64,000 nucleotides of DNA from Psychrosphaera sp. B3R10 (GTDB taxonomy: Bacteria > Pseudomonadota > Gammaproteobacteria > Enterobacterales > Alteromonadaceae): positions 1,964-65,963 of the forward strand of contig NZ_JAHKQH010000042.1 in NCBI RefSeq assembly GCF_018861025.1, read 5' to 3'. Positions 15,105-30,112 of this stretch are shown here, piece by piece (within the stretch, counting starts at the first letter, position 1; each line of letters starts with the position of its first letter). The notes below the pieces were generated by a model. The model had not been told where the DNA came from. It saw only the letters and a list, made by a program, of their open reading frames with translations, and made no database searches. A program made the position numbers and the translations under genes.

Positions 15105-15458
15105 TTAATTCTTAGGTTGACTATTTTTCGTGGGATCGTTTTTTGTGTCACCATCTTCAGGGACATAAACAAAACTGCCATCTGCCATTTTGTAGGCAAC
15201 CCCAGCACGTGACCCCTCACCTGAGCCCATTTCCCCGGTGGACTTGTATTCTTTAATTTCTTTTCCTTTTTTAACAATAACCTCCATATTTGGTTTACCG
15301 GCATTTTTTATGACGGTGACATCATCACTAGAAAACACACTTAGCGGGTTTTGGGCTAAGGCAATGAGCAGGGCCGCTATGATTACCAAAAATACATCCA
15401 CCAAATTGACCGCACTGCTCATTGGGTTTAATTCTTCGTCTTCATTGAGCAAACGCAT
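15105..15458 (-). CDS. DUF2149 protein, ExbD-like single-span membrane partner
   Basis: A 117-residue protein with a short cytosolic start (RLLNEDEELNPMSSAVNLVDV), one membrane segment (about residues 22-40, VFLVIIAALLIALA) and a hydrophilic periplasmic tail. The N-terminal pattern with the Asp just before the membrane span is the DUF2149 signature and resembles ExbD/TolR. Its start codon overlaps the stop of the ExbB-like gene (TAATG), so the two are probably made in step and form one proton-driven channel. The pair sits behind a Fur box, pointing to an iron-responsive energiser of outer-membrane uptake. The receptor it serves is not in this window. Confidence 0.75.
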   Translation of the reverse strand: MRLLNEDEELNPMSSAVNLVDVFLVIIAALLIALAQNPLSVFSSDDVTVIKNAGKPNMEVIVKKGKEIKEYKSTGEMGSGEGSRAGVAYKMADGSFVYVPEDGDTKNDPTKNSQPKN

Positions 15459-16045
15459 TACGCTGCTCCTTGTACAAGCTCGGTTTCAAATTCAGGTTCA
15501 TTTGTTGTCACTTGATCATCATTGCGTCTGAATTTGCGAATATTGATCAGCTCAGTGGCGTACCAGCGCTTTTTAACTGACGCAGGCCAAAATGTAATGG
15601 TCGAAACCAATAATCCCCAAATAACCGCGGCGAAAGCAATGATGAGGTTTTCACTTATCCCTTGAATATTACCATCAGCAAGTGCTTTTAGTGCCGGTCC
15701 CATTGGGATCATTGTTGCAATTAAGCCTAACATTGGGCTCAATTTAGTGACGATCCTTAATGACTCCAACTGCTTTAAAGCAAACACATCGACTTCATCT
15801 TCATCACATTGAGGGTTGGCAATAAAATAATTATGAATTGGGTAACCTGCAATAGGTTTGGCTAGTCCTTGTTTTAAACTTGTTTCGTACTGTACCGAAT
15901 GTTTACGACGTAATATTGATTGGGAAATAAACTTACCCAGTTCAAAAAGGGCATAGATGAACATGCCGCAAATTAAAAATAGTACCGGAACGATAAATAG
16001 TTCTGACATGTCTGCCATTAGAGTTTCAATTTGACTGATTAACAC
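15458..16045 (-). CDS. MotA/TolQ/ExbB-family proton-channel protein
   Basis: A 195-residue protein with three membrane segments: about residues 15-38 (LFIVPVLFLICGMFIYALFE), 100-120 (MLGLIATMIPMGPALKALAD) and 135-155 (LIIAFAAVIWGLLVSTITFW). The second carries the family's conserved LSPMLGLIATMIPMGPAL pattern. The start is GTG with AAGG 6-8 bases upstream; an in-frame ATG 12 codons later is possible. Together with the DUF2149 partner it should convert proton flow into mechanical work at the envelope. The transporter it energises is unknown. Upstream are a promoter and a Fur box. Confidence 0.8.
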   Translation of the reverse strand: MLISQIETLMADMSELFIVPVLFLICGMFIYALFELGKFISQSILRRKHSVQYETSLKQGLAKPIAGYPIHNYFIANPQCDEDEVDVFALKQLESLRIVTKLSPMLGLIATMIPMGPALKALADGNIQGISENLIIAFAAVIWGLLVSTITFWPASVKKRWYATELINIRKFRRNDDQVTTNEPEFETELVQGAA

Positions 16046-16081
16046 GGTGGACCTTACTTAATAAATTGATTTCAGAGCCGT

Positions 16082-16123
16082 ATTGTAAAGTAATAAAATA
16101 AAATGTAAATACGAATCATTATC
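16082..16123 (-). promoter_or_regulatory. Promoter with Fur box for the ExbB-like/DUF2149 pair
   Basis: On the minus strand TTTACA (16104-16109) and TACAAT (16082-16087) are spaced 16 bp, a good sigma-70 pair. A 19-bp element at 16105-16123 reads GATAATGATTCGTATTTAC on the minus strand and matches the classical Fur consensus at 13 of 19 positions, including the whole GATAATGAT half. It overlaps the -35 box, so iron-loaded Fur would block transcription. Confidence 0.7.
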
Positions 16124-16125
16124 AT

Positions 16126-16154
16126 TTGACTTAAATTTTGCGGTGTGTCATTAT
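16126..16154 (+). promoter_or_regulatory. Rightward promoter-like sequence next to the Fur box
   Basis: TTGACT (16126-16131), a 17-bp spacer and CATTAT (16149-16154) form a plausible sigma-70 promoter directed into a gap with no rightward gene. It starts 2 bp from the Fur box, so it could be controlled by the same repressor. Confidence 0.45.
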
Positions 16155-16160
16155 CTTTCC

Positions 16161-16261
16161 GTGGTTTGGTATGACACATTAAATACTTTGGATTACAGGC
16201 CTTTGGTATTTATATCCGTACCAAATCAAGATTAAACTACGACGTGGTAGTTTAATTTTTG
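16161..16261 (+). ncRNA. Candidate small RNA, possibly Fur-controlled
   Basis: From the predicted start near 16161 to the T-run at 16256-16260 there is about 100 nt without a credible open frame. It contains a hairpin TTTGGTA (16202-16208)/TACCAAA (16219-16225) and ends in a perfect 10-bp stem ATTAAACTAC/GTAGTTTAAT (16231-16256, 6-nt loop) followed by T residues. The ACCAAA arm can alternatively pair with other TTTGGT copies at 16165 and 16258. The layout is promoter, structured RNA, terminator. I do not recognise the sequence as RyhB. Evidence is structural only. Confidence 0.4.
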
Positions 16262-16311
16262 GTTTATTAACATCGAAGTTAATAGAGCAGTTTTTGTTTA
16301 TGTTGGAAGTC

Positions 16312-16338
16312 AAAGCCAGTGCGCACACACTGGCTTTT
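16312..16338 (+). terminator. Second rightward terminator-like hairpin without a rightward gene
   Basis: AAAGCCAGTG pairs with CACTGGCTTT across a short GC-rich loop and is followed by TTTT on the plus strand. On the minus strand it lies 46 bp past the tautomerase stop but has no T-run there, so a plus-strand transcript is the better fit. Confidence 0.5.
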
Positions 16339-16383
16339 TTCATTTAAAGCTAGTCCCTGAAATCAATTGCAAGTCGTTGTGTG

Positions 16384-16770
16384 TTAAACATCTACCTTGT
16401 AGCTTAAGGTGTTTGCTTCATCTCCAGTAATGCCTCTAAATCCCCAGCAATGTTTTGGTTGCTCATGAATGGTAATCTCGACATCAATAGGTTTGATACC
16501 TAATGTCGATTCAATCGACGTGAATAGGTGCTTGATTAGCGCTTTTTTGGTTTCTATGGTGCGTCCTTCCATCATGTTAATTTCAATGATGGTATATTGG
16601 GCGCTTCGGTCACTTGGGTAATAAAAATTATCAGCGTCCATCGGCATAAATCGTTGAATACGTTTATCTTCAGGCAATCCTAATACGGCGACAAGGCTCG
16701 CGTGGATGACATCAGATAGAGTGGCTTTTATTGGGTTTAACGTTTCTCTAATTCCATAAATGACAATCAT
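16384..16770 (-). CDS. Tautomerase-superfamily protein lacking the N-terminal proline
   Basis: A 128-residue protein resembling the tautomerase family (Tautomerase_2-like) found in Vibrio and relatives. Conserved stretches include SDVIHASLVAVLGLPEDKRIQRFMP (about residues 18-44), YTIIEINMMEGRTIETKK, and the C-terminal DVEITIHEQPKHCWGFRG. Known catalytic tautomerases use Pro-2 of the translated chain as the base; here the protein begins Met-Ile-Val, with no downstream Met-Pro alternative. It may have another activity or none. Apparently a single-gene unit. Confidence 0.75.
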   Translation of the reverse strand: MIVIYGIRETLNPIKATLSDVIHASLVAVLGLPEDKRIQRFMPMDADNFYYPSDRSAQYTIIEINMMEGRTIETKKALIKHLFTSIESTLGIKPIDVEITIHEQPKHCWGFRGITGDEANTLSYKVDV

Positions 16771-23886: not shown

Positions 23887-25677
23887 ATGACAAAACGATA
23901 TTTAGGTATGAAAATACTTAGCATGGCAGCCGTGACAACTTCTCTTTTAATGTTAAATGGTTGCGGTAAAAGCTCGATGGAAACATCAATAGGCGCAAGC
24001 AATAAAATAAACGCTACGGGTGATATAGAATTTTCAGAACATTATCTGACTCGGGATGTCCGTGATGATGTGTTTTATTTTGTTATGCCAGACAGATTTG
24101 ATAACGGTGATCCGAGCAATGACTTAGGATCTAAAACCATCAAAATTAGCTCTGGTGGATTCGATCCAAAAAGCACTGGGCATTACCATGGTGGTGACAT
24201 TAAGGGGCTTACTAAGCGTTTAGATTATTTAAAAGATTTAGGGATTTCGGCAATTTGGCTTACGCCTATCCTCCGTAATCAAGCAGTGCAGGGCGATTCG
24301 TCAGGTTATCATGGTTATTGGCCGTTAGATTTTACGGAAATTGACCCTCATTTGGGTACCAATGCGGATCTAAAAGAGTTTATAGACAAAGCCCACGCTA
24401 AAAATATAAAAGTGTTTTTTGACATCATCACAAACCACACCGCAGATGTGATTAAATTCAAAGAATGCCATGGCAGTGACCAACCTCAATTTAGTACTTC
24501 TACCGCATTATGTGATTATCGTTCAGTCGCCGATACAAAAGCTGGTAAGGGTTATACACCATATTTACCTGAGGGGACCGCTGAGTTAAAAAGCCCTGCA
24601 TGGTTAAATGACCCTAAGTTTTACCACAATCAAGGTGATAGTACATGGCAGGGGGAAAACTCTGTTTACGGTGACTTTATGGGACTTGATGATGTTGATA
24701 CCGACAACCCTGAAGTTGTAAAAGGCATGATTGAAATATTCAATAATCTCATTAAAGAATTTAAACCAGACGGTTTTCGAATTGATACCGTCAAACACGT
24801 GAATATTGAATTTTGGCAGCAATTTACTCCCGCGATAACTGAGTTTGCTCAGTCTATTGGGATCCCACAATTTTTTGTGTTTGGTGAAGTTTTCTCTGGT
24901 GATACCGACGTATTAAGTCATTACACAACTACAGGTGATATGCCTTCTGTTTTAGATTTTGCATTTCAATATCGAGTTAAGGATGTATTTGCCAGTCAAA
25001 AAGGCACTGACAATTTGGCGGACTTATTTAGCCATGATGTAAAATACGAAGATCATAATAGCTCTGCTGATCTGTTGATGAATTTTGTCAGTAACCATGA
25101 TGTGGGACGACTTGCTTATACGCTTGACCAATCGTTGCCAAATGCAGATGAAGACGAAAAAATACAACGCTTTTTATTGTCCAATGCGATGATGTATTTT
25201 GCGCGCGGTATTCCTGTTATTTATTATGGTGATGAGCAGGGATTCACTGGCGACGGTGGGGACCGCGGTGCGCGCGAAGACATGATGCCTTCAGTGACGC
25301 CAGAGTATAATGATAATAATCTGTATGGCACGAGTAAAACCACAGCCGATGACAATTTTGACCCTTCGCATCCTATTTACCAGCAGTTTGCTAAATATGC
25401 TGAGTTGTACCATGGGCACAAAGCACTTCGTCAGGGCAAACAAACGGTTTTACAAACAAGTGATGAACCAGGGATTTTTGCGATCAAACGTTCTTTTGCT
25501 AATAACGAAGACTATATCGTTGTTTTTAACTCTGCAACTGAGGAAAAAAACTTTACCCAATCAATTGAAGGTCATTCAGCTGAATTAATTTATGGTAAAA
25601 AGGCGAATGTGAAAAACAGGGTTGTTTCGACGACGTTACCTGCATTAAGTATGAGTATATACCGAATTGGTCGATAG
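23887..25677 (+). CDS. GH13 alpha-amylase family lipoprotein
   Basis: A 596-residue glycoside hydrolase. The signal ends in lipobox L-N-G-C, so it should be lipid-anchored. The (beta/alpha)8 domain shows HYHGGDIKGLTKRLDYLKDLG, DIITNHT (region I), GFRIDTVKH with the nucleophile Asp (region II), VFGEVFSG with the acid/base Glu (region III) and NFVSNHDVGR with the third Asp (region IV). A small beta domain ends the protein. It probably degrades starch or maltodextrins at the cell surface or in the periplasm. The ATG at 23887 lacks a clear SD; an in-frame ATG at 23908 would still leave a complete lipoprotein signal. Confidence 0.9.
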   Translation: MTKRYLGMKILSMAAVTTSLLMLNGCGKSSMETSIGASNKINATGDIEFSEHYLTRDVRDDVFYFVMPDRFDNGDPSNDLGSKTIKISSGGFDPKSTGHYHGGDIKGLTKRLDYLKDLGISAIWLTPILRNQAVQGDSSGYHGYWPLDFTEIDPHLGTNADLKEFIDKAHAKNIKVFFDIITNHTADVIKFKECHGSDQPQFSTSTALCDYRSVADTKAGKGYTPYLPEGTAELKSPAWLNDPKFYHNQGDSTWQGENSVYGDFMGLDDVDTDNPEVVKGMIEIFNNLIKEFKPDGFRIDTVKHVNIEFWQQFTPAITEFAQSIGIPQFFVFGEVFSGDTDVLSHYTTTGDMPSVLDFAFQYRVKDVFASQKGTDNLADLFSHDVKYEDHNSSADLLMNFVSNHDVGRLAYTLDQSLPNADEDEKIQRFLLSNAMMYFARGIPVIYYGDEQGFTGDGGDRGAREDMMPSVTPEYNDNNLYGTSKTTADDNFDPSHPIYQQFAKYAELYHGHKALRQGKQTVLQTSDEPGIFAIKRSFANNEDYIVVFNSATEEKNFTQSIEGHSAELIYGKKANVKNRVVSTTLPALSMSIYRIGR

Positions 25678-25692
25678 TTTACGCTAACGCAG

Positions 25693-25731
25693 AAAAAGCC
25701 CCGGACAAATAAATTGTTCGGGGCTTTTTTG
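25693..25731 (+). terminator. Strong terminator after the amylase gene
   Basis: AAAAAGCCCCGGACAA pairs with TTGTTCGGGGCTTTTT (one G-T pair, 5-nt loop), followed by more T residues, 16 bp past the stop. Confidence 0.93.
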
Positions 25732-25853
25732 TTTTAAAGGTGTTTTTAACTAAATTAAAATTAATTGCTATTAATACCGCTAAGTCTTTCACAAATGGCT
25801 AAAAAATTACTAAAATAGGCAGATACCCGACAACAATAATAATTAGGAAAGTA

Positions 25854-28985: not shown

Positions 28986-29069
28986 TGCGCAATCATTCAT
29001 GTGATATCGCACTTTAGGTGTTAACTTTAGGATTAAATGATTAATCTTGGTTATACGATAAAGCGATGT

Positions 29070-29107
29070 AAAAAGGCGCCCAATGTGATTGCAATGGGCG
29101 CCTTTTA
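29070..29107. terminator. Bidirectional terminator between the vWA lipoprotein and lipA
   Basis: AAAAGGCGCCCA and TGGGCGCCTTTT form a long stem with A/T runs on both sides, in the gap between converging genes. Confidence 0.9.
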
Positions 29108-29140
29108 TCTAATAGAGACTGATTTTACAGTCGACTATTT

Positions 29141-30112
29141 TTATTTAACCTCTTCACCAGCTGCTTGTTTGTCCGCATGATAACTAGAGCGTACAAATGG
29201 ACCTGAGGCCGCATGTTTAAAACCTAGGTTGTCAGCTTCAGCTTTAAAGATATCAAACTCAGCAGGCGGTACATAACGTTCTACTGGCAAGTGATGTTTA
29301 CTTGGTTGTAAGTACTGGCCAATAGTTAACATGTCTACGTCGTGCTCGCGAAGATCTTTTAGTACTTCAATTATCTCTTCGTTTGTTTCACCAAGTCCAA
29401 CCATCAGCCCTGATTTAGTATCAACCTCTGGATGTTGTGCTTTGAATTTTTGAAGTAATTCTAGTGACCACTTGTAGTTAGCGCCTGGACGAGCTAAACG
29501 ATACATACGAGGCGCTGTTTCTAAATTGTGATTAAACACATCCGGTGGTGCGGTCCCTAAAATCTCCAGAGCAGTGTCCATTCTTCCACGGAAATCAGGA
29601 ACCAAAATTTCAACTTTAATGCCAGGGTTATGTTTACGAATTTCAGTCACACAATCAGCAAAGTGTTGGGCACCGCCGTCACGCAAGTCATCACGGTCAA
29701 CAGAGGTGATAACAACATATTTAAGGCCCATTTCTTTGATGGTTATGGCGAGCTTTTCTGGCTCTTGAGCACTTGGAGGCAATGGGCGTCCATGAGCAAC
29801 GTCACAAAATGGACAACGGCGAGTACAAATGTCACCTAGAATCATGAAAGTTGCCGTGCCGTGGGTAAAACATTCTGGCAGGTTAGGGCATGACGCTTCT
29901 TCACATACAGAACTTAACCCTTGGCTACGCATCGCTTTTTTGATGTTGTCGATTTTTTCGCTCGACTTAGGCAATCTGATCTTCAACCAATCAGGTTTTC
30001 TTAACATGGTTTCGCGTTCAGTCGGCATGATCTTTACCGGAATTAGCGCCATTTTGTCTGCATCACGTAATTTAACGCCTGCTTCTAATTGAGATGTTTT
30101 AATTCTGCTCAT
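29141..30112 (-). CDS. lipA: Lipoyl synthase (radical SAM)
   Basis: LipA inserts two sulfurs into protein-bound octanoyl chains. The auxiliary cluster motif [12 protein letters not shown], the radical-SAM motif CTRRCPFC and the C-terminal [11 protein letters not shown] with the conserved Ser are present. The ATG at 30112 gives 323 residues (E. coli 321) and overlaps the end of lipB by 14 bp; a TTG at 30124 would add four residues. It is the last gene of a leftward run after ybeD and lipB, so octanoylation and sulfur insertion are co-produced. Confidence 0.95.

Follow-up and report, generated by a model that had tools for sequence, protein, structure and literature searches.

A predicted Fur-repressed noncoding transcript at a probably reduced heme-uptake locus of Psychrosphaera sp. 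B3R10

As a 338-bp gap between two leftward genes of Psychrosphaera sp. B3R10 contains a Fur box with promoter-like letters and a hairpin to its right, we were interested whether this gap gives rise to a rightward RNA and where such a transcription unit might come from. The window, i.e. the whole stretch of 64,000 nucleotides that was analysed, belongs to the genome (G000; 4.7 Mb, 48 contigs) of a marine bacterium. The gap (16046-16383) has the length given in an earlier sequence-only reading. On its left lies a gene of the MotA/TolQ/ExbB family (exbB; 15458-16045, minus strand; PF01618), which starts at 16045, forms the leftward arm of the Fur operator and has a DUF2149 gene as operon partner (15105-15458, minus strand; PF09919). 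On its right, a leftward tautomerase gene (16384-16770, minus strand; PF14552) ends at 16384 and would be convergent with the proposed RNA. In agreement with the earlier statement that no rightward gene precedes the terminator, only one rightward frame of at least 80 aa was found between the end of the thiolase gene (14360) and the terminator at 16312-16337, and this frame of 97 aa lies opposite the DUF2149 and exbB genes. Fur-repressed small RNAs are induced under iron limitation or upon loss of fur and pair with target mRNAs, usually together with Hfq. A repeat or mobile element was ruled out, as a 361-bp region matched its own place alone in the genome at E 0.001. At E 1, a 246-bp query led to five places in the same genome, four of them short, and among the matches listed for this query many fall on the Fur box; plasmids and phages gave no match at E 1e-5.

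The Fur box itself was confirmed. Scoring with a relative-based matrix placed 16106-16128 first in the 64 kb with 24.2, followed by 11.6 for the next site, and the maxima of 100 first-order simulated sequences had a mean of 10.0, none of them reaching 24.2. This matrix was built from 25 related exbB loci, with the window and the congeneric genome G001 left out. For each input site, the best match to a Fur consensus in a fixed region was taken, 20 sites being distinct among the 26 listed with G001 included; because the sites were chosen by that consensus and several are identical, the matrix is biased towards it. The contrast between scores within the window stays large despite this bias. The plain 15-mer consensus has three mismatches at the site (10 such sites in 64 kb vs 6.4 expected) and the 19-mer consensus gave no match with up to three mismatches, so that the site is strong only by the relative-based matrix. 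Two divergent promoter-like sites share it, with one -35 element at each end. Leftward, exbB has TTTACA-16-TACAAT (16082-16109, minus strand; 10/12 matches), and its -35 element (16109-16104) is located within the left end of the Fur site. Rightward, TTGACT (16126-16131) and CATTAT (16149-16154) are separated by 17 bp exactly as read before and are accompanied by an extended TG (16126-16154, plus strand; 9/12 matches), with the -35 element overlapping the right end of the Fur site. There is good support for a Fur site in a region of divergent promoters. This site overlaps the promoter of the proposed RNA, that promoter being a consensus match only, and such matches occur at chance level (38 in 20 kb vs 44 expected from shuffles). 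As the Fur site also covers the exbB -35 element, it is on its own no proof of a rightward gene.

The proposed transcript (16161-16341, plus strand) would start at a position deduced from the -10 element and comprise about 100 nt if it ends at 16261. Folding of 16160-16262 led to a minimum free energy of -33.2 kcal/mol (z -5.2) and folding of 16160-16342 to -59.4 (z -6.8); among 6390 overlapping 103-nt stretches of both strands, 16161-16263 ranked third by folding energy corrected for G+C content. Apart from this stretch, folding in the window is strongest at 29001-29160 and 25638-25783. A long hairpin (16162-16228) with a 12-bp outer stem (16162-16173/16217-16228) and a nested 8-bp stem dominates the fold, and TTTGGTA (16165-16171) pairs with TACCAAA (16219-16225) within the outer stem, as had been proposed. 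All three TTTGGT copies (16165, 16202, 16258) are present too, but the alternative folds suggested for them are costly: forced pairing of the second or third copy gave -26.3 or -24.4 instead of -33.2, a loss of about 7 or 9 kcal/mol. The A+T-rich stem-loop at 16230-16257, claimed as a terminator at 16231-16256, does fold, but it is weak, having two G-C pairs and an interrupted T run (TTTTTGGTTT), and a terminator scan did not list it. A better rightward terminator at 16312-16337 (AAAGCCAGTG/CACTGGCTTT; 10 pairs, 5 of them G-C, run of six T) had been overlooked and points to a transcript length of about 180 nt. In the leftward direction, GACTTCC rather than a T run comes after the stem of this terminator. 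Rightward frames within the RNA are tiny, the longest one of 24 aa beginning with GTG at the deduced start point. Thus, gap, promoter letters, Fur site and stems of the original observation stand, with corrections to the weight of the promoter match and of the Fur site, to the terminator and to the alternative folds. From its anatomy, namely the Fur site, the promoter-like site at its edge, the terminator, the strong folding and the lack of a rightward gene, a Fur-repressed noncoding rightward transcript is likely.

A possible origin of the rightward promoter, also missed in the sequence-only reading, became apparent from related loci. ExbB homologues were detected in 55 of 295 family genomes, and the layout was examined at the 30 best-scoring places, which include 28 from other genera. 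A TonB-dependent receptor gene that starts beyond the operator and is directed rightward is present at 24 of the 28 and missing at L067 and the three lowest-scoring loci (L087-L089). The one receptor that was classified (L136) exceeds the NCBIfam cut-offs for receptors of heme/hemoglobin and has PhuR as its best solved relative. In relatives, the gene driven by this operator is that of a TonB-dependent, heme-type receptor. In all eight of the wider regions from other genera (L136-L140, L143-L145), a protein of about 1300-1390 aa is additionally encoded downstream of exbB. The one such protein tested is CobN-like (PF02514). A DUF2149 gene is listed between exbB and the large protein in seven of the eight; in the exception, L143, the overlap filter shows an opposite frame at this position. 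Neither receptor nor CobN-like genes were found in the window (no match at E 1). The genome itself has 48 receptor-barrel matches but no close match to the relatives' receptors; a search with 405 N-terminal aa from the L077 receptor reached at best 32% identity over 141 aa, compared to 57-76% among the receptors of the related loci (self-matches left out). With a receptor at this operator in relatives and no close match in the genome of the window, the promoter probably descends from that of a lost heme receptor gene and would now direct the synthesis of a noncoding RNA.

The ExbB-like and DUF2149 genes at 15105-16045 are kept without the CobN-like and receptor genes found with them in relatives, and this stretch reads as a reduced heme-uptake locus. 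The genes presumably correspond to the Hmu proteins of Bacteroidota, going by gene names. Heme-type receptor, ExbB-like, DUF2149 and CobN-like genes around the operator of the relatives resemble the Hmu heme-uptake operon, which includes the receptor HmuR and the CobN-like dechelatase HmuS (PMC12583661); of this set, just the ExbB-like gene and its DUF2149 partner remain in the window.

Neither BLASTN nor a covariance model of the window RNA (R1) recognised a homologue in 395 family genomes, its own included. BLASTN at E 0.05 led to some match in 87 of the 395, but outside the own locus none of the matches listed covers more than about 50 of 191 bases, many of them fall on the stem at 16312-16337, and the best one outside the own genome (G001, L003) lies inside an unrelated coding gene. 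R1 gave three weak matches (E 0.018-0.094 per genome), fewer than expected by chance at that cut-off, in a search with stricter filters, which lose weak matches. Stem conservation in close relatives had been named before as a test, and R1 detected none in the seven other genomes of the genus. Only one of these, G001, has exbB (on a contig of 90998 bases), and at 67% protein identity this relative is too distant for the absence of the RNA to say much. Its tautomerase gene is on a different contig, so the neighbourhoods differ, and by eye the Fur-like box is kept while the sequence to its right is different. The accessible parts of the literature searched contain no description of this RNA that we could find. 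The transcript is probably either a lineage-specific small RNA or the leftover of a receptor gene.

Between these, we favour at a probability of about 0.5 a Fur-repressed, orphaned transcription unit whose promoter position was inherited from a lost heme-receptor gene and whose RNA acts as a base-pairing small RNA. Fur with iron on the one operator would cover both -35 elements, shutting exbB leftward and the RNA rightward. When iron is short, both promoters would fire, the rightward one giving a noncoding, structured RNA whose length would be about 100 nt or, with greater likelihood, about 180 nt. Its promoter position would derive from the ancestral heme-receptor gene lost in the lineage of the window, and the RNA, rather than being idle, may act in trans by base-pairing in iron sparing or in the control of heme uptake. 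This reading draws on the Fur site with its divergent promoter-like sites, the folding rank and z-scores, the T-run terminator without a rightward gene, the receptor layout of the relatives with no close receptor in the own genome, and a precedent in another genome (G175, see below). Counting against it are the lack of a recognised RNA homologue in the genus or the 395 family genomes, the chance-level promoter match, the fact that exbB alone explains the Fur site, the different right flank in G001, the dissimilarity of the window RNA to a leader RNA of relatives, and a receptor layout seen just in the closest exbB loci.

The main rival, less probable yet serious, is that the receptor was deleted and the Fur-controlled promoter now fires into a short, functionless leader ending at the old terminator. 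The receptor layout of relatives, the lack of a close receptor in the own genome and the unrecognised conservation of the RNA would be expected from such a relic as well. Moreover, the second terminator with its flank (16298-16340) is similar to the one that follows another TonB-dependent receptor gene of the same genome (L154 1361-1406, contig C20, minus strand; 82% over 43 nt, E 1e-3). This likeness is weakened by the AAAGCC/GGCTTT-stem terminators that are also found behind other receptor genes (at 30 of the 48 receptor loci inspected). Against a relic, a convincing remnant of receptor coding sequence was not detectable, as tblastn with six receptors gave in the short region of the gap matches of just 10-27 aa (E 0.026-0.098) and none at E 1 across the whole window, and a hairpin ranking third of 6390 exceeds what an idle leftover would need to retain.

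We consider it unlikely that there is no rightward gene at all, i.e. that the Fur site serves exbB only, the promoter match is due to chance and the hairpins are fortuitous or terminate leftward transcription. Promoter-like matches are indeed not commoner than in shuffles, exbB has with 10/12 its own promoter-like site overlapping the Fur site, and terminator-like sites also occur within genes, e.g. at 16526-16544 in the tautomerase gene. However, the T run of the terminator at 16312-16337 is confined to the rightward strand, and in relatives a gene does run rightward from the same operator.

In other genera, the leader of the TonB-dependent heme-type receptor gene was observed to contain a structured RNA of about 100 nt, which shows covariation, has a C-rich loop and carries a GCCCAA motif upstream. 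This RNA is firm in g22 (L067, L070, L073, L074) and g65 (L077) and weak in g55, where three leaders (L062, L064, L069) look similar by eye. A covariance model made from L070, L073 and L074 (R2) found L067 (E 6e-10) and L077 (E 2e-4), neither being part of the model, with the 27.8 bits of L077 barely exceeding the mirror-image matches to the opposite strand of L070, L073 and L074 (23.6-27.0 bits). In the alignment of all five sequences, 17 of 31 pairs are changed on both sides and 95.9% of the cells are paired, values to be read with the rows having been fitted to the structure by covariance-model alignment and three of the five being close relatives. None of 500 shuffles reached as high a covariation, and slid controls gave 1-4 pairs. 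When a further model (R3) was applied to 21 loci outside it, the top three matches, individually weak, were the expected places in L069 (E 0.01), L062 (E 0.024) and L064 (E 0.53), with the next (E 0.63) elsewhere. Only the five source loci pass E 0.01 in the 395 family genomes, and no Rfam family matches this leader RNA at gathering score in the 20 loci searched.

The window RNA is quite improbably a diverged member of these leader RNAs. It shares with them the position, the direction, the Fur operator and a long hairpin by the promoter, and the layout of a 12-bp outer stem, a 5' internal loop of about 6 nt and an 8-bp second stem is similar. Unlike them, it shows neither sequence nor model similarity: R2 and R3 scored no higher than 7.2 and 8.8 bits, with matches confined to the A+T-rich stem-loop, the reverse search of the relatives' leaders with R1 gave no match, and 16155-16345 contains neither the CCCCC run nor the GCCCAA motif.

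A parallel to the proposed loss is provided by G175 (L067/L156 1860-2800, C7), in which the leader RNA is present beside a Fur-like site while the receptor is absent from the locus. This Fur-like site is one of the weaker ones (10/14), and a T run comes after the outer stem of the RNA. No receptor orthologue was found in the 10 kb analysed; the neighbouring gene points leftward, and the weak receptor matches beyond it (22-28% identity) belong to another receptor gene. If the window RNA is made, it would illustrate how a small RNA gene can originate when the protein gene is lost from a divergent iron-controlled promoter and a short terminated transcript is retained, and G175, whose leftover RNA shares its structure with relatives, makes this route testable. 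Rather doubtful is the wider idea that in several Alteromonadales the Fur operator of the heme locus drives both a receptor and a self-standing regulatory RNA, kept with compensatory changes after receptor loss as in G175, the window RNA being a fast-evolving or replaced example in the place of RyhB.

The earlier statement that the sequence is not recognisable RyhB was borne out, as the covariance model of RyhB (RF00057) rejected it both at gathering score and at E 10. Rfam gave four weak matches on the window RNA (E 0.0024-2.7), the best with 25.1 bits vs a cut-off of 45 and three of four on the other strand, and three short strings of the RyhB core are absent from it. Among 98 family genomes none has RyhB above the Rfam cut-off, and 27 have weak matches below it, the own genome not among them. 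These negatives do not show that RyhB is absent, because neither Rfam nor BLAST is reported to have detected the RyhB of Shewanella oneidensis (168 nt, Fur box upstream), which was located by its position beside SO4716/VC0106 (PMC2964681). An unrecognised orthologue is nevertheless very improbable: the Fur site at the promoter, the similar length (about 180 nt via the second terminator) and the stand-alone intergenic unit fit, but there is no match even at E 10, no core string and a different genomic place than that of S. oneidensis RyhB (PMC2964681). If made, the window RNA would be a candidate for a small RNA under Fur control in a group of marine bacteria without RyhB above the Rfam cut-off.

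Two further loci differ at the receptor position. G001, which has neither a receptor nor a CobN-like gene at its exbB locus, carries beyond the Fur-like box a rightward gene of the MerC family (L033 2217-2600) where relatives have the receptor. In G134 (L140 7794-9983) the receptor region consists of two frames of 302 and 417 aa, perhaps reflecting a broken receptor gene.
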